Assembly (NCBI RefSeq): GCF_030463565.1
Contig: NC_134649.1
Location: 506,001 to 570,000 of the forward strand
DNA: 64,000 bases
Direction: 5' to 3'
Origin: Pelecanus crispus
Taxonomy: Eukaryota; Chordata; Aves; Pelecaniformes; Pelecanidae
Below, one piece after another: positions 15,680 through 64,000 of the stretch. The position numbers were made by a program, and so were the translations under genes. Positions within the stretch are counted from its first letter, which is position 1. Each line of letters begins with the position of its first letter. The notes beneath the pieces were generated by a model. The model ran no database searches, was not told where the DNA came from, and worked only from the letters and a program-made list of their open reading frames with translations.

Positions 15680-20491
<4,812 letters not shown>

Positions 20492-25800: not shown

Positions 25801-28067
25801 TCAGCTCATCTGCACCTTCCCCAGAGCATCTCCTGCTCCCCTCTCCCTTCTGCAAGCGCAGAGTGGGCACTACTGAGAGCCCGGGGCTATCCCCACACTG
25901 CCCTGGGGGCTAATTCCCACTGCCCGGTCCTGCAGCAGGCAGGATCCTGTCTCGTCCCAGATACCATCTCACCTGCACTGGAAACACATTTGCAGCACTT
26001 GGAAAACCAGTATTAGGTCGGTGCCACCGGAGCAAGAGCGGCTCCGCAAAGCGGCACCCACGGGAAGGGGCTGGCTGGGGAGCGCGGCAGCCGACCCGGC
26101 ATGGGTATGTTCGGGGGCCCTGCCCGAGCCCAGCAGCGCGTGGGAGATGGGCTGCAAGGGAGCGTGGCTGGATGGGCTCCGTAAGTCCAGCTGGGAGACC
26201 CAGCTTTGCTCTCTGGCTCAGGCCGGCTCCCCCTTGAAAGAAGCCCTAGAAAATGGCAACCCCCTTGCTCGCAGCCTGCTGGGAGGGGCTGCGGCAGCGT
26301 GTGGCCAGGGTCCCCCAAGTCACCTTGCCGCAGCACCCGCAGCGGGTCTGAACCCCCCTCCCTGAGGATGGAAACTCCCAGGATGAAAGGAGGCTGGGCA
26401 GCCCCAGGGCCCCTGCCCGTAACGATGCCCTTTCACTGCTGATCAATGACCGCTAGCGAATGCCACCCGTGGGTGCCTCTGCCCACCCGCACCACCCATC
26501 CCCCGGGGCTGGACAGGGCTCGGGAGCACGGGGACACCCCTCTCCCCCAGCACCTACATCTAGAGCCGGCACATCTCCTCGAGGCACGGCGAGGGCAGGA
26601 CCCCTGGGGTGCCCGACGTGCGCTGGCCCCTACCTTGTGCGTGAGGGAGTGCTGCTTGAGGTGGTGGATCTGGCTGAACTCCATCCCGCACTCAGTGCAG
26701 ACGAAGGGCCGGACGTTCTGGTGCTTCAGCATGTGGTTCTGCAGCTGGCTGCGGTAGTGGAAGGACTTGCTGCACTCCAGGCACTGGTACAGCGTGGGGC
26801 CCTGGTGCGTGGAGAGGTGCCGCTTCAGCTGGGTGAGCGTGGAGAAGTCCAGCCCGCACTCCACGCAGACGTGGCAGCGGCCGCTCTCGTGCTTCACCTC
26901 GTGCGCCTTCAACTCGCTGGGGTAGGCAAATCCCCGGCCGCAGAAGCGGCAGCTGTAGGGCTTGATGTCAGTGTGCAGCAGCATGTGCCGCTTCAGGTGG
27001 CTGGTCTGGGTGAAGGCCTTGCTGCACACCTCGCACTTGTGGGGCCGCGTGCCCTGGTGGGTCAGCAGGTGGGTCTGCAGGTGGCTGGGCTGCTTGAAGA
27101 GCTTGTTGCAGTGCGGGCAGGAGTGGGGCTTGATGCCGTTGTGGCCCAGGATGTGGGTCACCAGGTTGTACTTGGACGTGTAGGACTTCTCGCACATGCG
27201 GCACTGCCAGCGCTTCTGGCGGTCCCCCGCCTCCACCAGGTAGGAGTCATCGATCTGCACGTTGATGTCCAGCCGGTCCAGCTGCGCCTTCTTGTTGCGC
27301 TCGCTGGTGACACCCGCCGCCTCCGCCTCCAGCTCCCCCGGCTCCTGCCAGGCGAAGCCCTGCTCGCTCTTCACCTGCTCGGGGGATGCCGGCGCAGGGG
27401 CCTCCGCCTCGCCAGGGGACGGGGCACCCACCTCGAAGGCGCATTCGGTCCGCAGGGCCCCTGCGGTGCCACCCTCCGCCGCGCCGGCCGGCTCGGTGCC
27501 GCTGAGGTGGCGCTCGGTGCCCTCCAGCTCCTGCCGCGTGTGCCGGCGCAGGTGCCGCAGGCGCCGGGGCTTCCTGCCGAAGGCGCCGAGGTCAATCATC
27601 TTCATGGCGCTGCTCTGCACCGTCTGCTCCTGGCTGGGGTCCTGGAGGGGAGGCGGGCGGCTGTGCTGCTGCTGCTGCTCGCCCTCCTCGTCCCCAGGGC
27701 CGGACACTTCGTACAGCGCCTCGTCCTCCGCCTCCTCGCACTTGACCTTGGGCACCAGCCTCACAGGAGGCCGCTTCCTCCTCCGGGCGTGCTTCTCCAG
27801 GGAGGACTCTGCCTCCAAGGCATCCTCCTCCTGCCCGTCCCCCGGCGCCTGGCCCTCGCCCTCCAGACGGCACTCGCCCTCCGGCTCCCCGGGCTCCACC
27901 GCGGCGGCATCCGGCAGCTCCCCTCCCAGCCCCGGGAAGAAGCCAGCGGGGCTGACGGTGGCCCCAAGAAGCTCATTCTCGGACACCAAGCCCAGAACTG
28001 CAGCCTGCGCCAGGGACAGCACCACCACCGCGTCCGTCTGGGTCCCGCACTCGGTGAAGCGATCCAT
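22891..28067 (-). CDS. ZNF710: Zinc finger protein 710 (complete, 657 aa, 11 C2H2 fingers)
   Basis: Nuclear C2H2 zinc-finger protein, presumed sequence-specific transcriptional regulator. Coding exons on the minus strand: 26634-28067, 25314-25505, 24636-24810, 22891-23063; total 1974 nt, in phase, stop TAG. The start MDRFTECGTQTDAVVVLSL matches the family start and has G at -3 and +4. Residues 1-285 are acidic and disordered with a Q4 run and the conserved KMIDLGAFGRKPR segment. Eleven fingers follow, with first cysteines near 289, 317, 345, 373, 401, 429, 457, 485, 513, 541 and 569. Linkers such as GIKPHSC and SPVKPFKC differ from the common TGEKP. Exon junctions fall after finger 7 and inside finger 10. 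The tail ends EQAMKEMAYYNML. Human ZNF710 is 664 aa. It is convergent with IDH2, as in human. Confidence 0.97.
24183..24600 (+). mobile_element. CR1 LINE, 5'-truncated 3' end
   Basis: Runs from the GGAGCTGGGGGTGCTCAGCC segment through GGACAAGGAGTAATGGCTTT, GAGGGTGGTGAAGCACTGGA and GTTGCCCAGAGAGGTGGT, and ends ATTCTGTGATTCTATGA. This is the classic avian CR1 3' tail with 8-bp ATTCTRTG repeats and no poly(A). It lies in the last ZNF710 intron, antisense to that gene, with its end about 36 bp from the exon 24636-24810 donor. Confidence 0.95.
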
Positions 28068-28095
28068 CTCTCGCTGCCTGCCTACGCTGTCATTG
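28068..28095 (-). other. ZNF710: ZNF710 leader within the first coding exon, with minimal uORF
   Basis: A 3' splice site (CCCCAG) ends at 28096, so the coding exon begins with only 28 nt of leader. It contains a complete 3-codon upstream frame, ATGACAGCGTAG (28082-28093), which stops 14 nt before the ZNF710 ATG and is out of frame with it. Confidence 0.7.
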
Positions 28096-28097
28096 CT

Positions 28098-31000
28098 GGG
28101 GAGGGAAAGAGACAGCTGTTAGCCCTCCTGGTGCCCCTGCCACCACGCAGACACTGGCAACGCTGCTCCACGAGGCGCTCATTCCAGCTGTCACCCCTTT
28201 CCTGATCACTGTCCCCAGCAAACCCCAGACCGATATGGGTGATGCCAGCACAGGTCCCCAGCACCACGCACCCCAGGACATGGGGTTGGTGCGGCCCTGG
28301 GGGTCTCAGCTGCAGGGGGGGGACCGGGGAGCCAGGCTGCGGAGGGGAAGCTCAGCTCCATGTCCATGGTTGGCCTTTCTGGCCAGGCTATCGAACCCCA
28401 AGGCTGAGGTCTGGCTCCTCACGTGCCCCAGAGCTCCCTGGCAGCGACTCCTGGGAACAGGCACCCATGCAATTTGGGGACCAGTCAAGAAAGCCAAACG
28501 TGCCGCTCTGCCCTGTGCTCCCTCCAGGAGCAAGAAGTGGCAGTGAAGGGCATGGGGAGCCTGAGGAACCAAAGCCCAAACCCTCCTCACTGGGAGCATC
28601 TAGAAAGTGGTCAAAGTGCCAGGCTTGCGATCCCAAGCGAAGCGCATGGCAGAGGCTCTGCTCAGCTCAGTGCTGGTGCTGTTGGCACGCTCACCTATGG
28701 GAGTCCGAGCATCGCGGACTCGTGTGCCCGAGTTACGCAGGGAAGAAGCACAGGACACGGACGGGGTCAGAGCAGGACTGACCCAACACTGATGCCACCC
28801 TGGGTGCGTGACAAATGGACCACAACTGGTTTATCACCACTCAGACCCTCGGGACCTGGAGACACATCCCCACCGCCCTCCAGGAAGGCTCGTGACAGGA
28901 TCCCACAGGATCAACTCTTGAGCTCGTGCTGTTTAAGTATTCCATCCACTTTCGGGAAGAAAGTCGGATAACTGCTCGCGGATGACACCCACAGCGATGC
29001 TCACTTGCACCATCGCCACAGGACTCATCGGCAGAACGGCCTGCCTGGGCGCGCTGGCACCACAGGAACCCTTGAGCAAGTCATCCCGATGGAAACGTAG
29101 GGAGACCACAAGGAGAGGGACAAGGGAGCAGACGTGGCTCCAGGGCGTGGGGCAGCAGCCTGGACCTGCGAGCGATGCAGAGCCTCCAGCACCCAGGTGG
29201 GCGACCTGCAGGAGCGTGCCAGAGCCCGCCGGAGAGGCGGCACAAGAGGAGCGGCTCCAGTGCTGCTGTTCGCTGCATCCAACGCTGGTGACGGCTGGGG
29301 AAAAGGTGACGGTGGAGCTCACATGGGAGCAGTGCACGGTGCCAACCAGTTTGGGAGATACATACTTGAAAGGTCAGGTAGACATCAACCAGCTTTGGCT
29401 AGGACAAATGACCTTTGGTGGAGAAGCAAGGAGCAGTCAGCAAGCGCAGGAGAGCGCACCGGGAGATCCCGGCAATGCCACGGTATCGCCACTGGGTATA
29501 CATGGGACCACAGCAAACTCACAGGGCCGCAGTTTCAGCGGTAAAAGTCAAAAGGCGAGCAGAAAGCCCCACGTTCACATCATGCCTACAGGCGGTTGCC
29601 ACTGGCAGCTGCCGGGTCTACAGTGGCAGCAGGCATGGGGCACCCCGGGGACAGCAGCTCCGCTCCTGAGCCTGGGACAAACCAGGAGCTCCCCGTGCTC
29701 TGGTGGTCTCCGGGGGACCCACCAGCCTGGAGAGCAGAGCACAGGGTGCGTTCCCACCAAAATGGGTGACCAGCGTGGGAATGGCTGCAAGGAGGGACAA
29801 GGCCCTTCCGAAGAGCTGGCATTCCTCACCAGGCAGATGGAGCCTGCACCCGCCCCACCAGCACCGGCCCTTTCTGGAGAGCTCAGGGACAGCCGGCCAG
29901 CAATCCGAGGAACCACTGCCATAAACAGCCTGGGAATCTGGGATAGCAAAGCACGGAGGAGCTGCTGCACCAAGAAGAGCGGGGCAGACACCATTGCGCC
30001 TCAGGGATGCTGTTTTGCCATCCATCCCCAGATCCCTCCGGTTGGCAGCCGTGGGTTCCTTGGCGATTCAGGCTGGGAAACAGGGAGGGGAGACCATCAG
30101 AGAAAGCAAAACAGAGTGAATTGAGAAGCCGGAGAGATGTAAAGGTGCAGGCAGGTCTGCCAGTGGAGCAGCCCGCCGGTAAGCTTGGGAAAGACACACG
30201 GGCTGCCAAAACACTCCCTTCAGCTGGAGGGTAGTTTATGCGTTTTGTTTTGCGAGGATTAAAACAACACCTTAAGAACGTGCCCACGCTCGGCTTGCTC
30301 GTGCCCAGGGGCCCAACAGCCCCCAGCCCCGTACCCGCACCAGAGAGGATGGGGCAGTGTCCTGGAGGGACGCGGAGCCTGGAGCAGCGATGCCCGACTC
30401 CCCCGGGGCCGAGCCAGCCCAGGACCCCCATGGATGGGGTGCAGGGCCCCCAGCAGCCTCCTCCAGCAGCCCTGGGGTGGCCAGCAAGGATGGGCAGGGA
30501 GGCACCTGGAGAGCTGCCACCAGATGAAAGCCAGGAGGCCGCCACTTCCTCCTGCGGTGAAGAATGTTTTCCTAAATATAATTATTTCTGCAGCTACAAC
30601 AAAGAGAAATCCTATGGGGGAGGTAAAACAGGAATAAACTCTAAACCAGATTATGTCGCAGTCCCAGGAGCACCTGCACGGCGTGAGAGGCAACCCTGGG
30701 CTAAATAACCACTCTCCGAGCGGAGAAACCCTGCTTTACCCAGCTATCGTCCCCACGGTTCTCACCGTGGCACCCACACGGCCTCCACGCCACATCCCGC
30801 CTGCCAGGCCAGTTACGGGCTGCAGGGAGAGGAGCGCTGGCCGGCGCACATCAGCCTCTCCGCTGCAAACAAACACCGCTGCAAACACCGCTGCAGGCAG
30901 CTGCCTGCTCTTGCTGGTTCCTGCACGGCCCTGATGAGCGTGGCCTGCGCGTCCTCTCACGGCAGCTCTGCGCCCGCCGTGGTGCACAGATCCCTCTGGG

Positions 31001-55566: not shown

Positions 55567-55642
55567 CGCGCCCGAAGTTTGGGGGCACTTTGCAGGTGCA
55601 GGACCTGCAGGAGCTGCAAACTGTCCCCAAACTTCGGGCGCG
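55567..55642. other. Perfect 18-bp inverted repeat with extended dyad
   Basis: CGCGCCCGAAGTTTGGGG (55567-55584) is exactly repeated in inverse complement at 55625-55642. The inner flanks are also partly paired (TTTGCAG facing CTGCAAA), so most of the 76 bp can fold as one cruciform or hairpin. Confidence 0.95.
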
Positions 55643-56147
55643 GCCCGCGTGGGGACCCCCTCGCCCCCCCCCCAGCAGCAGCCACCCCACGCCGCGGCAC
55701 CCCGGGGGGCTGCTCGGCGGCCGCCCCGCTCCGGGCATCCCCCGCCCCGCAAAGCCCGGCGGGGGGCGATGCACCCCTCCCTCAACAGGTAACGACCCCG
55801 CGGCCGGGGGCCGGGCCGCCCTCCCCGCAACTTTACCGGGCCCCACGACCGCGGAGAAACTTTGCGAGCGGCGACGGGGAAACTTGGCGGCGGGGAACCG
55901 GGGGCGGGGGGGAGCGGAGCACCCACGTGTGGAGCGGACACCGCCGCCCCCCCCCCCCCCGCCGCCATCGCTCCCGTCTCGGTCGCGGGGGGAAGGTGGA
56001 AGCGAAAGAGAAGACGGCGGCGTTACCGGCGGCCCCGGCTGCGGAGCGGCGGTCCCCGGCGGTGGGGGGAGAAGGGCAGGGGACAGACGGACACGCAGAC
56101 GGGGTGGGGGGGAGGCGGGGGCCCGCAGCCCGGCGGCGGGGACTCAC

Positions 56148-56300
56148 CGTGCGCTCTCCCGCGGCGGCTCCGCGGGGCGGCGGCGGCGGCTCCGGGCCCG
56201 GCGCTGGGTGCGCAGGAAGGAAGAAGGAGGGAATGAGGCAGGGCTGACGTGAAGGGATGCAAAACAGCTCCTCCTAACTCGGCCGCCGGCGGCCGCCCTT
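56148..56300 (-). other. ZNF710: Candidate non-coding first exon of ZNF710
   Basis: A strong minus-strand donor, GCGCACG/GTGAGTCC, is at 56147-56148 inside the CpG island. A minus-strand GATAAAGGG box near 56296-56304 could act as a weak TATA element, in which case transcription would begin at about 56270. It would splice to the acceptor at 28096, giving a 28-kb intron. This rests on splice signal, CpG island and known ZNF710 structure, not transcript evidence. Confidence 0.5.
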
Positions 56301-57799: not shown

Positions 57800-58680
57800 C
57801 CCGCGGCTGCTGCAGCCAATCACGACGAGGAGGTGCGAGGCTGCAGCAGCGTCAGCCAATGGAATGAGGAAATGCGAGGCTGTAGCAGCCTCAGCCAGTC
57901 AGGACAAGGAGATGTGAGGCTGCAGCAGGCTTAGCCAATCAGAACAGGAGATGCAAGGCTGCAGCAACATCAGCCAATCGAAATGAGGAGATGGGCGGCT
58001 GCAGCAGCCTCAGCCAATCAGGACAAGGAGATGCAAGGCTGCAGCAACATCAGCCAATCAGAATGAGGAAATGTGAGGCTGCAGCAGCCTCAGCCAATCA
58101 GGACAAGGAGATGTGAGGACGTGTAGCCTCAGCCAATCGGGACGTGGAGACTCGAGGCTGCGCAGCCTCAGCCAATCGGAACGTTGCGACACAAGGCTGT
58201 GCAGCATCAGCCAATAGGGATGAGGACACGTGAGATTGCGCAGCCTCAGCCAATCGGGATGAGGAGATGCGAGGCTACATTTGCCTGAGCCAATCGGCAC
58301 ATTGCGAAACAAACCTACGCAGCCTCAACCAATAGGGATGTGGAGATGCAAGGCTGTGCAGCCTCAGCCAATCAGGATGTCGTGATGCAAGGCTGCACAG
58401 TCTGAGCCAATCTGGACGAGGAGACACAAGGCTGCGCAGCCTCAGCCAATCAGGATGTTGTGACGCAAGGCTGTACAGCCTCAGCCAGTCGGGACAAAAA
58501 GACACGAGGCTGAAGCAGCCTCAGCCAATCGGAATGAGGAGACATGAGGCCACGGAGCCTGAGCCAATCGAGACGTTGCGACACGAGTCCGCGCAGCCTC
58601 AACCAATAGGGATGAGGAGGCGCTGGCTACAGCCGTCTGAGCCAATCGGGACACTGAGATACAAGCCTACGCAGCCTCAA

Positions 58681-59035
58681 CCAATAGGGACGTGGAGATG
58701 TGAGGGTGCACGGCCACAGCCAAACCGGATGTCGCGACTCGAGGCCACGCAGCGTCAGCCAATCGTGATGTTGCAACTGATGCTGCGCAGCCTCGGCCAA
58801 TTGGGACGAGGACCTGTGAGGTGGCACAGCCTCAGCCAATTGAGATGTTGCAACATGATTCTGCGTGGCCTCAGCCAATCGGGATGTAGAGACGCAAGGC
58901 TGCACAGCTTCAGCCAATCAGGACATGGGGACACAAGGGTGTGCGGCCTCAACCAATTGGGACGAGGCGATGCGAGGCTGCAGCAGCCTCAGCCAATAGG
59001 GACATGGAGATGAGAAGGTGCACATCCTCAGCCAA
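58681..59035 (+). repeat. Higher-order block, copy 1
   Basis: A run of nine or so distinctive units, including the diagnostic variant CACAGCCAAACCGGATGTCG in which CCAAT has become CCAAA. It recurs in the same order 3168 bp downstream (61849-62203) with few differences. Confidence 0.9.
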
Positions 59036-60458
59036 TCGGGACGAGAATATGTGAGGCTGCGCAGCCTCATCCAATCAGGACAAGGAGAAGCGAGGGTGCG
59101 CGGCCTCAGCTAATCAGGATGTGGAGATGCAAGGGTGCGTGGCTTCAGCCAATTGGGACGACGACACGTGAGGTGGCACGGCCTCAGCCAATTGGGACAA
59201 GGATACACGCGGGTGTGCAGCCTCAGCCAATCGCAATGTTGAGACTCGATGCTGCACAGCCCCAGCCAATCGGGATGTCGCAACTCGAGGCCGCGCAGCC
59301 TCAGCCAATCACGATGTTGCAACACGATGCTGTGCACCTCAGCTAATCAGGACAAAGAGCTGTGAGGCTGCGCAGCCTCAGCCAATCGGTACGCAGAGAT
59401 GCGAGCTTTTGCAGCTTCAGCCATTCGGGATGAGGAGATGTGAGGTGGAGCAGCCGCAGCCAATCGGGACGAGGAGACGCAAGGCTGTCCAGCCTCAACC
59501 AATCGCGATGTGACGACGCGAGGCCCCACAGCCTCAACCAATCGGGAGGTTGCGACACGAGGACCCACAGCCTCAGCCAATAGGGATATGACACACAATG
59601 CTGCACTGCCTCAGCCAATCGGGCCATGGAGACGCGAGGCCGCGCAGCCTCAGCCAGTCACAATGTTGAGACTAGATGCTGCACAGCCCCAGCCAATCAG
59701 GACGTGGAGACACTAGGCTGCGCAGCCTCAACCAATCGGGACATCAAGATGCGAGGACGTGCAGCGTCACCAGATCAGATCGAGGAGACGCGAGGCTGTG
59801 GAGCCTGAGCCAATCGAGACGTTGCGACACGAGTCTGCGCAGCCTCAACCAATAGGGATGAGGAGATGACGGCTACAGACGTCTGAGCCAATCGGGACAT
59901 TGAGATACAAGCCTATGCAGCCTCAACCAATACGGACATGGAGATGCGAAGGTGCACAGCCTCAGCCAATCGGGACACTGTGATGCGAGGCCGCGCAGTC
60001 TCAGCCAATCAGGACATTGTGACATGACGCTGCGCACCCTCAGCCAATCGGGACGAGGAGATGTGATGCTGCGCAGGCTCAAACAATCGGGATGAGGAGA
60101 CGTGAGCGTGCGAAGCCTCAGCCAAATGCAATATGGTAACACGAGGCTGCACTGCCCCAGCCAATTGGGACGTGGAGACGCGAGGCTGCACAGCCTCAGC
60201 CAATCAGGACGGGGAGATGTGATGCTGAGCAGCCTCAGCCAATTGTGACATGGAGACATGTCCGTGCGCGTCCTTGGCCAATCGGGATGAGGAGATGTGA
60301 GGTGGCGCAGGCGCAGCCAATCAGGACGAGGAGACGCAAGGCCATGCAGCCTCAGGCAATCGCAATGTGGCGACATGAAGCCGTGCAGCCTCAACCAATC
60401 GGGGCATTGTGACTCGAGGCTGCGTGGCCTCAGCCAATCGGGAGGTTGCGACATGAGG

Positions 60459-60474
60459 CCCCCCCCCCCCCCCC
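60459..60474. repeat. C16 run interrupting the satellite
   Basis: Sixteen C replace the start of one unit, between ACATGAGG and GCCTCAGCC. It is the only long homopolymer seen in the array. Confidence 0.9.
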
Positions 60475-61848
60475 GCCTCAGCCAATAGGGATGAGGAGAT
60501 GCTAGGCTGCACAGCCTCAGCCAATCCCAATGCTGCAATTGGAGGCTGTGCTGCCTAAGCCAATCGGGACGTGGAGATGCAAGGCTGCACAGCCTCAGCC
60601 AATCAGGACATGGAGATGTGAGGGTGTGTGGCCTCAACCAATCGGGACGAGGCGACACAAGGCGGCAGCAGCCTCAGCCAATAGTGATGAGGAGACGCTG
60701 GCTACAGCCGTCTGAGCCAATCGGGACATTGTGATACAGGCCTACGCAGCCTCAGCCAATAGGGACATGGAGAGGCGAAGGTGCACAGCCTCAGCCAATT
60801 GGATTGAGGAGATGCGAGGCTGCGCAGCCCCAGCCAATCGGGATGTTGCAACACAATGCTTCGCGGCCTCAGCAAATGGGGTCGAGGAGACATGAGGGTC
60901 CGCAGCCTCAGCCAATCGGGATGAGGAGACGCAAGGCCACGCAGCCTTAACCAATCGCGATATTATGAGGCGATGCTGTGCAACCTCAGCCAATCGGGAT
61001 GAAAAGCAGCGAGGCTGCGCTGCCTCAGCCAATCAGGATGTCGTGTCTCGAGGCGACGCAGCCTCAGCTAATCAGAACGAGGAGATGCAAGGCTGCGCAG
61101 CCCCAGCCAATCGGGACGAGGTGATGCAATGCTTCACAGCCTCAGCCATTCAGGACAAGGAGATGCGAGGCTGCGCAGCCTCAACCAAATGGGCATCGTG
61201 ACGCAAGGCTGTGCAGCCTCAGCCAATCAGGACATGGAGACATGAGCATGCACGTCCTCAGCCAATCGGGATGAGGAGATGTGAGGTGGCACAGCCGCAG
61301 CCAATTGGGACGAGGAGACACAAGACCTCATAGCCTCAACTAATCACAATGTGGCGATACGAAGCCGCGCAGCCTCAACCAATTAGGGCATAGCGACGCG
61401 AGGCTGTGCGGCCTCATCCAATTGGAAGGTTGCGACACGAGGCCTCACAGCCTCAGCCAATAGGGATGAGGAGATGCTAGGGTGCACAGCCCCAGCCAAT
61501 CAGGACATGGGGACACAAGGGTGCATGGCCTCAGCCAATTGGGACGTGGAGACGCGAGGCTGGGCAGCCTCAGCCAATCGGGACGTTGTGATGCAAGGCT
61601 GCAGCAACGTCAGCCAATAGGAATGAGGAGACGTGAGACTGTGCGGCCTCAGCCAATTGGGATGTCACAACACAAGGCTGCGCAGCCTCAGCCAATCGGA
61701 ATGAGGAGACACGAGGCCACGGAGCCTCAGCCAATAGGGACGAGGAGATGCAAGGCTGCAGCTGGCTCACCCAATCAGGTCGAGGAGACGCAAGGCCACG
61801 GAGCCTGAGCCAATCGAGACGTTGCGACACGAGACTGCGCAGCCTCAA

Positions 61849-62203
61849 CCAATAGGGACGTGGAGATGTGAGGGTGCATGGCCACAGCCAAACCGGATGT
61901 CGCGACTCGAGGCCACGCAGCGTCAGCCAATCGCGATGTTGCAACTGATGCTGCGCAGCCTCAGCCAATCGGGACGAGGACCTGTGAGGTGGCACAGCCT
62001 CAGCCAATCGAGATGTTGCAACACGATTCTGCGTGGCCTCAGCCAATCGGGATGTGGAGACGCAAGGCTGCACAGCTTCAGCCAATCAGGACATGGGGAC
62101 ACAAGGGTGTGCGGCCTCAACCAATTGGGACGAGGCGATGCGAGGCTGCAGCAGCCTCAGCCAATAGGGACATGGAGATGAGAAGGTGCACATCCTCAGC
62201 CAA
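61849..62203 (+). repeat. Higher-order block, copy 2
   Basis: Matches 58681-59035 unit for unit at an offset of 3168 bp, including the CCAAACCGG variant and the GGACCTGTGAGGTGGCACAG unit. Differences are mostly C/T and G/A at CpG sites. Confidence 0.9.
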
Positions 62204-64000
62204 TCAGAATATTGCGAATCGATGCTGAGCAGCCTCATCCAATCAGGACGAGGAGATGCACGGGTGCGCGGCCTCAGCCAATCAGAACATTGTGATGCGA
62301 GGCAGCACAGCCTCAGCCAATCAGGACACGGAGCTGTGAGGGTGCGTGGCTTCAGCCAATCGCGATGTGGTGATGAGATGCTGCACAGCCCCAGCTAATT
62401 GGGACATGGACAGACTGATTGTCCTCAGCCAATCAGGGTGTTTTGATGCAAGGCTGCGCAGCCTCAGCCAATCAGCACATGGAGACGCAAGGCTGCATGC
62501 TCTCAGCCAATCGAGATGACGACATGTGAGGTGGCACGGCCTCAGCCAATCGGGATGAGGATAGATGCAGGTGTGCAGCCTCAGCCAATTGCAATGTTGA
62601 GACTCGATGCTGCACAGCCCCAGCCAATCAGGATGTCGCAACTCGAGGCCGCGCAGCCTCGGCCAATCACGATGTTGCAACACGATGCTGTGCACCTCAG
62701 CCAATCAGGACAAAGGGCTGCGAGGCTGCTCAGCCTCAGCCAATCGTGATGTTGTGACATGAGGCTGTGCAGTCTCAACCAATTGGGATGAGGGGATGCG
62801 AGCTTGCACAGCCTCAGCAAATCGGGACGTCCTGACGCGACGATGCACAGCTCCAGCCAATCGAGATGCGGAGATGTGAGCTGGAGCAGCTGCAGCCAAT
62901 CGGGACGAGGAGACGCGAGGCTGCACAGCCTCAACCAATCACAATGTGGCGACTCGATGCTGTGCAGCCTCAGCCAATCGCGATGTTGCAATTAGAGCCT
63001 GCGCTGCCTAAGCCAATTGGAACGTGGAGACGTGAGGTCACGCAGCCTCCGCCAATCAGAATGAGGAGATGCAAGGCTGCGCATCCTCAACCAATCGTGA
63101 TATTATGAGGCGATGCTGTGCAACCTAAGCCAATCGGGATGAAGAGCAGCAAGGCTGCGCTCCCTCAGCCAATTGCAATGTTGCGACTCGATGCTGTGCA
63201 GCCTCAGCCAATCAGAACCTGGAGATGCGAGGCTGTGCAGCTTCAGCCAATCGGGATGTGGAGACGTGAGGCCACGCAGGCTCAGCCAATCGGAATGTTG
63301 CAACATGATGCTGAGCAGCGCCAGCCAATTGGGACGTTGTGACACAAGGGTGTGCAGCCTCAGCCAATCATGATGTTGTGACAAGATGCTGCGCAGCCTC
63401 AACCAATCAGGATGAGGAGACCCAAGGCTGCGCAGCCTCAGCCAATCGCGATATTGTGACACGAAGCCGCGCAGCCTCAGCCAATAGGGATGTTGCAAAA
63501 CAATGCTGCGCAGCCTCAACCATTCGCAGTATTACAACACAATGCTGCGCAGCTTCAACCAATCGGGACGAGGAGATGTGAGGCTGTTCAGCCTCAGCCA
63601 ATTGGGATGAGGATACGTGAGGTTGCACAGCTTCAGCCAATTGCGATGTTGCGATTGGAGGCCATGCTGCCTAAGCCAATCGGGACATGGAGACGCGAGG
63701 CCGCGCAGCCTCAGCCATTCAGGACGTGGAGACTCGAGGGTGTGCGGCCTCAACCAATTGGGAAGAGGCGACACAAGGCTGCGGCAGCCTCAGCTAATAG
63801 GGATGATGACATGTGAGGTGGCATAGCCTCAGCCAATCGGGACAAGCATACTTGAGGCTGCACAGCCTCATCCAATCGCAATGTTGCAAGTCGATGCTGC
63901 GCAGCCCCAGCCAGTCAGGATGCGGAGACGTGAGCGTGCACGTCCTCAGCCAATCGGGATGAGGACATGTGAGGTGGTGCAGCCGCAGCTAATCGCGATG

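Follow-up and report, generated by a model that had tools for sequence, protein, structure and literature searches.

The closest described design to the one reported here is that of the primate ERV9/LTR12 long terminal repeats (LTRs), in whose U3 region head-to-tail units of ~41 bp carry one conserved CCAAT each; NF-Y binds the LTR12 CCAAT repeats, mutating the repeats abolishes binding, and there are about 5000 human elements with 5–17 repeats each (PMC11853044). Direct CCAAT repeats also occur in promoters bound by NF-Y and c-Fos, mostly as dimers; two NF-Y trimers need at least 24 bp and the reported CCAAT spacing peaks at 31, 41, and 52 bp (PMC4982600). Here we describe a tandem array of 39-bp units, each carrying a single CCAAT box of NF-Y type, in a 64,000-nucleotide stretch of Pelecanus crispus ("the window"; contig NC_134649.1, here C7:506001-570000), which runs on into the next 10 kb to the right (L007, where window numbering is carried on as extended coordinates). 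Regulatory minisatellites and variable number tandem repeats, such as the insulin repeat, are likewise single-locus tandem arrays that lie close to genes and repeat a factor site unit by unit, whereas the pelican units are strongly diverged and have a measurably colder (less changed) core. The array is best read as an old single-locus minisatellite whose NF-Y boxes are probably constrained.

57813..64000, continuing to ~L007:1520, plus strand: 39-bp array with one NF-Y-type CCAAT box per unit (Tandem Repeats Finder [TRF] and unit alignment)

TRF placed the array at 57813-63995, up to the window end, and the right flank together with TRF carries it to ~65520 in extended coordinates (L007:1-1520, ending at C7:571520), a total of 7.7 kb located between two genes. 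A preliminary description of this DNA, in which a 39-bp repeat reached the window end, was thus borne out by TRF and alignment, the array being longer than claimed by ~1.5 kb past that end. Wrap-around alignment gave 198 units of 39 bp, 159 of them inside the window, and the window units have the consensus CAGCCTCAGCCAATCGGGACGTGGAGACGCGAGGCTGCG. Two DNA queries of the whole genome (1.31 Gb, 310 contigs) matched only C7:563.8-571.5 kb, the counts being lower bounds, and one locus was thus found; with head-to-tail units of tens of bp and kilobase size at one place, it has the form of a minisatellite. Satellite DNA, with its many large heterochromatic arrays and homogenised units, was rejected because there is only one 7.7-kb array and adjacent units are not more alike than distant ones. 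A coding array was considered because 39 is a multiple of 3 and was also rejected, as the longest open reading frames (ORFs) that open with a start codon within it have 261 aa (minus strand) and 159 aa (plus strand), and such ORFs are scattered over frames. Although LTR12 shares the conserved CCAAT, membership in ERV9/LTR12 was rejected as well: 198 units of 39 bp at one locus stand against 5–17 repeats of ~41 bp in thousands of dispersed LTRs (PMC11853044). The unit sequence is also different, and no LTR context was noticed, although no search was aimed at LTRs.

CCAAT is intact in 168 of the 198 units (166 of the 196 nearly complete units, which were used for column statistics), and intact boxes are evenly distributed along the array (0.82–0.88 per fifth). 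On both strands of the window, CCAAT occurs 181 times as compared to 110.8 expected, a number reached by 0 of 100 shuffles; the ~150 boxes initially counted in the window come to 136 intact plus-strand CCAAT. The earlier statement that almost all copies carry AGCCAATCGG or differ from it by one step was loose, the exact 10-mer being present in 47 of 198 units and RRCCAATSRG, RRCCAATSR, and RRCCAAT being matched by 84, 108, and 159 of 196, respectively. Nor are the boxes always on the plus strand, although most are: 57801-65640 holds 172 plus-strand CCAAT but 25 on the minus strand as well, and the self-complementary CCAATTGG occurs 21 times. With RRCCAAT in 159 of 196 units, the array nevertheless holds many NF-Y-type sites in one orientation, as does an NF-Y homotypic cluster.

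With CpG columns set aside, change in the CCAAT core is ~4–5-fold lower than in the remainder of the unit. Cells differing from consensus number 33 of 980 in the core and 826 of 4697 in the other non-CpG columns (ratio 0.19), and arithmetic from the column values gives ~0.27 after leaving out the six most polymorphic columns. This CpG-corrected comparison had been proposed in the preliminary description, which named equally fast change of CCAAT, together with absence of NF-Y from the array, as the outcome that would speak against it; CCAAT changes more slowly, and the shared ancestry that it offered as another explanation of CCAAT retention is set aside by a difference of this size. Its hint of constraint was itself only partly well founded: the retention of CCAAT beside decaying CpGs does not by itself show constraint, because CpGs are hypermutable, but the core is also colder in CpG-corrected column tests.

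Because columns are the unit of replication, we rely on tests made across them. The core differs from the other non-CpG columns by a Mann-Whitney test (p = 0.0009), a base-stratified test (2 of 2352; 2 of 450 without the type-polymorphic columns), and shuffling of column order (4 of 4000; a fraction of 0.003 in a run of 600), and overall the base-matched column tests give p of about 0.001 to 0.004. The coldest five contiguous columns are exactly the CCAAT pentamer. CCAAT is intact in 0.847 of 196 units, whereas 8820 matched sets, each of five other non-CpG columns with the same A/T and C/G content as the core, average 0.363 and never exceed 0.740. A C in the same GCC context is changed in 19 of 196 units when it stands in column 3, but core column 9 has 5 changes in 196 (Fisher p = 0.005). 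Recent changes were counted in pairs selected because the units next to them resemble each other, each unit being used once and some pairs not being recent duplicates: 17 pairs show 0 core and 40 other non-CpG differences (binomial p = 0.0005), and 26 pairs show 3 and 75 (p = 0.0003). As far as one genome shows, CCAAT thus appears conserved beyond shared ancestry and CpG effects, and conservation of the sites beyond their surroundings, a second mark of an NF-Y homotypic cluster, is seen in the column tests within this genome.

Several observations weigh against constraint on NF-Y boxes. All of the tests rest on one genome, and if pairs with more than seven differences are dropped, the remaining 19 of 26 show 1 core difference versus 24 (p about 0.05, hand count). 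A spanning tree built on non-core columns gave a ratio of 0.62 overall and 2.40 on its 28 shortest edges; because such a tree picks neighbours by non-core likeness, it undercounts non-core change and is biased against a cold core, and it was replaced by the flank-chosen pairs. Core changes per unit are Poisson-like (166, 27, and 3 units with none, one, and two seen as compared to 165.6, 27.9, and 2.3 expected), and units with broken boxes are not more diverged elsewhere (0.784 vs 0.776, p = 0.50), so that losing a box leaves no trace of relaxed constraint. The non-core A columns 7, 18, 26, and 31 are kept nearly as well as the core (0.93–0.98), CpGs decay throughout the unit as in methylated DNA, and the spacing of 39 bp start to start (34 bp edge to edge) is off the reported 31, 41, and 52 bp series (PMC4982600). 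The Poisson fit, the divergence of broken units, and the even spread of boxes are compatible with selection or its absence, and neither need nor exclude it.

The chief competitor is that this is an old minisatellite without function, its core cold by chance, through local context or because of its founding units, and its NF-Y match a coincidence in a GC-rich, minisatellite-rich genome, an account we consider a serious one although somewhat short of even odds. It draws on the missing relaxation and the methylation-like CpG decay just described, on column p values of only about 0.001–0.004 from 29 non-CpG columns, and on the fact that the array was picked by eye because of its CCAAT word. In addition, arrays with any given word are common: motif triples across the genome gave 237 matches for CCAATSRG, 602 for the scrambled ACCATSRG, and 61 for CTACASRG, and the reversed-pattern controls gave 81, 262, and 922, respectively, all being whole match counts and not numbers of loci. 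What speaks against it are the base-matched, CpG-corrected column tests, the exact coincidence of the coldest columns with CCAAT, and the behaviour of the CCAAT word in other arrays.

For the last of these, nine other arrays in the window and in L008 gave shuffled-column-order fractions of 0.022 to 1.0 and, being short and less diverged, are weak controls. Eight CCAAT-bearing arrays from other parts of the genome, which lack NF-Y-type flanks, are better controls; their changes per core column and per other non-CpG column were 0.80 and 1.06 (L034), 1.60 and 0.65 (L035), 1.60 and 2.22 (L036), 0.40 and 0.82 (L037), 0 and 0.42 (L038), 4.54 and 4.16 (L040), 5.52 and 4.90 (L041), and 0.67 and 0.53 (L046). 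L037 and L038 have colder cores, but on the whole the pentamer is not cold in these eight arrays, even though L034–L038 came from a search requiring four CCAAT at 39-bp spacing and the L041 array also contains such a match, a route biased towards intact cores; L040 and L041 seem to be related and are not independent controls. In seven arrays of NF-Y type (L033, L039, L042, L043, L044, L047, and L048; 4–10 units each), the core is unchanged in 7 of 7, but these were found by demanding intact cores and are not counted as replicates of constraint. In all, 19 loci were analysed for CCAAT-bearing arrays of 24–60 bp with at least 4 units; 15 gave a result, and no such array was found at L045, L049, L050, and L051.

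The array is apparently old. Mean unit identity is 0.799 to the consensus (198 units) and 0.697 between pairs, and adjacent units are slightly less alike than the average (0.685, a value as low in 1 of 1000 shuffles), which is not as in a young or locally homogenised array; divergence this high predicts an age at which related species would also carry it. Some block copies are present, the clearest being a pair of nine-unit blocks:

58672..59022, plus strand: nine-unit block, first copy, with 0–2 differences per unit to the copy 81 units away
61840..62190, plus strand: nine-unit block, second copy, near-identical to 58672-59022

This pair is a recent long-range duplication inside the array. 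Such copying raises the prospect of biased amplification, in which units or blocks with intact boxes were preferentially copied (bound or open DNA might recombine more, for instance) with no benefit to the host; a core that is kept while broken units show no relaxation would then be accounted for. We consider it unlikely, since copying seems rare, given that adjacent units are not more alike than distant ones, and broken boxes were copied too, a CCAAA unit at 58711 recurring at 61879.

At its left edge, the array has variant units, which as a genome query match nothing but the present array:

57813..58117, plus strand: left-edge units, several of 40 bp, with CTGCAGCAGCC replacing CTGCGCAGCC (letters read)

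A run of ~16 C at 60460-60475 breaks one unit and accounts for the sole 48-bp spacing. To the right of the array, two extra CCAAT boxes at L007:1588 and 1618 (within L007:1581-1625) have the flank CTCAGCCAATCA as in the units and are otherwise unlike them; they would be either end units that have decayed or the sequence from which the array was seeded.

The base is kept in 0.663 of units at CpG columns, as compared to 0.815–0.829 at other non-core columns, and the decay products are TG and CA, with TA in 0–9 of 196 units. We read this as probable germline methylation. The CpG immediately following CCAAT is decayed as well (84 CG, 30 TG, and 51 CA of 196), and since every CpG column is decayed, including the one beside CCAAT, permanent occupancy in the germline is argued against. 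The NF-Y sink of the preliminary description and a permanently open platform are not supported. That the array titrates NF-Y from other sites, for which one can cite 168 boxes in one place, is highly improbable also by argument from numbers, as the ~5000 human LTR12 elements with 5–17 repeats each hold far more sites, beside which 168 is a small addition (PMC11853044).

The pattern of retention bears on which factor would bind. The position before CCAAT is a purine (G or A) in 189 of 196 units, and AGCCAAT includes GCCAA, the half-site of NF-1, so another CCAAT- or GCCAA-binding protein (NF-1, C/EBP, or a Y-box protein) could in principle be the partner instead of NF-Y. We consider this very unlikely: the T of CCAAT is kept in 0.980 of units and the preceding G in 0.796, and CCAAT is intact in 166 of 196 units as compared to 136 for GCCAA; retention of CCAAT rather than GCCAA fits NF-Y better than NF-1. 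As in the NF-Y/c-Fos promoters, the boxes are direct repeats whose 39-bp spacing exceeds the 24-bp minimum, so all sites could be filled together; 39 bp is at none of the 31, 41, and 52 bp peaks, and the kinks made by NF-Y would not face one way (PMC4982600).

The unit also contains, once per copy, the 16-bp GAGGCTGCGCAGCCTC, a perfect palindrome in the consensus. A working hairpin, cruciform, or structured RNA formed by it is scarcely credible and was rejected: there is no compensatory excess in seven of eight pairs, in which double changes are near or below expectation and 0–2 per pair restore pairing, the pair T35-A1 has 4 doubles as compared to 11.6 expected, and the window has no Rfam match at gathering scores.

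The array sits between two divergent genes. To its left lie the following:

26433..28118, minus strand: large exon of a ZNF710-like C2H2 zinc-finger gene (ORF, Pfam zf-C2H2), transcribed away from the array
55601..56200, no strand: CpG-dense stretch (GC 0.78-0.81, CpG observed/expected 0.76-1.05), a possible promoter of the ZNF710-like gene

We presume the name ZNF710 for the minus-strand ORF, and no first exon of the gene was located. To the right, outside the window, the start of a plus-strand AP-3 sigma gene lies at L007:3845, separated from the array end by 2325 bp; its first exon is barely above the cut-off for the clathrin adaptor small chain (E = 1e-4, 22.7 bits vs 22.5), and its next exon matches AP-3 sigma-1 chains in PDB (E = 2e-10). 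The gene is probably AP3S2, the sigma-2 assignment resting on the neighbouring genes in human. In human, ARPIN lies in the interval from AP3S2 to ZNF710; it was not seen in the corresponding pelican interval, where Pfam PF10574 found nothing, but this family was silent in all 14 control genomes too, so nothing follows from this. ZNF710, initially suggested as the target, therefore need not be the one affected, given an AP-3 sigma gene starting 2.3 kb to the right of the array.

The retained putative NF-Y boxes suggest a use of the array as a regulatory platform without proving it. In the explanation that we favour, the founding repeat unit would already have held a strong NF-Y-type box, purifying selection would then have kept most copies able to bind NF-Y, and the array may serve the ZNF710-like gene, the AP-3 sigma gene, or both, either as an enhancer with many sites or as a spacer of open chromatin. 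We give this whole account, an old minisatellite with NF-Y boxes under purifying selection and an enhancer or spacer role, a probability of roughly 0.4, in view of the base-matched column tests, the pair counts, and the control arrays. The similar design of LTR12, whose CCAAT repeats are proven to be bound by NF-Y, is counted as further support (PMC11853044). A bolder form, to which we lean less, would make the locus a gene-sized platform of ~170 putative NF-Y boxes that arose by tandem duplication, each box then being kept by purifying selection, and holding open the interval between divergent genes, the LTR12 design having been reached independently with more than 10 times as many repeats.

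The genome is minisatellite-rich, and of 87 genome-wide matches to four CCAAT at exactly 39 bp, 61 come from the present array. A similar array in this genome is the following:

L033:3305-3715 (C26:25304-25714): second 39-bp array, NF-Y-type core GCCAATCAGAG, 10.6 copies

This CCAATCAG array shares genome, period, orientation, and core with the array described here, but the rest of its unit is unrelated, its CpGs are largely kept (0.85), and it is much shorter; on the opposite strand, at a distance of ~1 kb to the right, an ORF reads like a long-wavelength opsin. Short arrays with CCAATCAG or CCAATCGG, unlike units, and periods of 28–54 bp also occur at L039 (C1), L040/L041 (C2), L042/L043 (C3), L044 (C5), and L047/L048 (C6). 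Recurrent birth of NF-Y arrays was considered on account of several such arrays with unlike units and was rejected, because scrambled motifs are also common in arrays (602 vs 237 matches, above), and no enrichment of NF-Y-cored arrays is claimed. A 23-mer of the array unit had no match in viral contigs, the 13-mer CAGCCAATCGGGA had none in paper text, and no bird array of this kind was found among the titles and abstract openings listed by literature searches. Elsewhere in the window, a 70-bp array of 12.6 copies lies at 15974-16853, with a strongly T-rich plus strand (AT skew −0.46 at 16001-17000).

Should the constraint fail, the array would be an example of a striking conserved word arising in an old array without function. 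Should it hold between species, selection would be readable inside a minisatellite; each unit would then be a replicate of one site, so that a single natural locus would allow measurement of how much change an NF-Y site tolerates and of how the number of sites matters.

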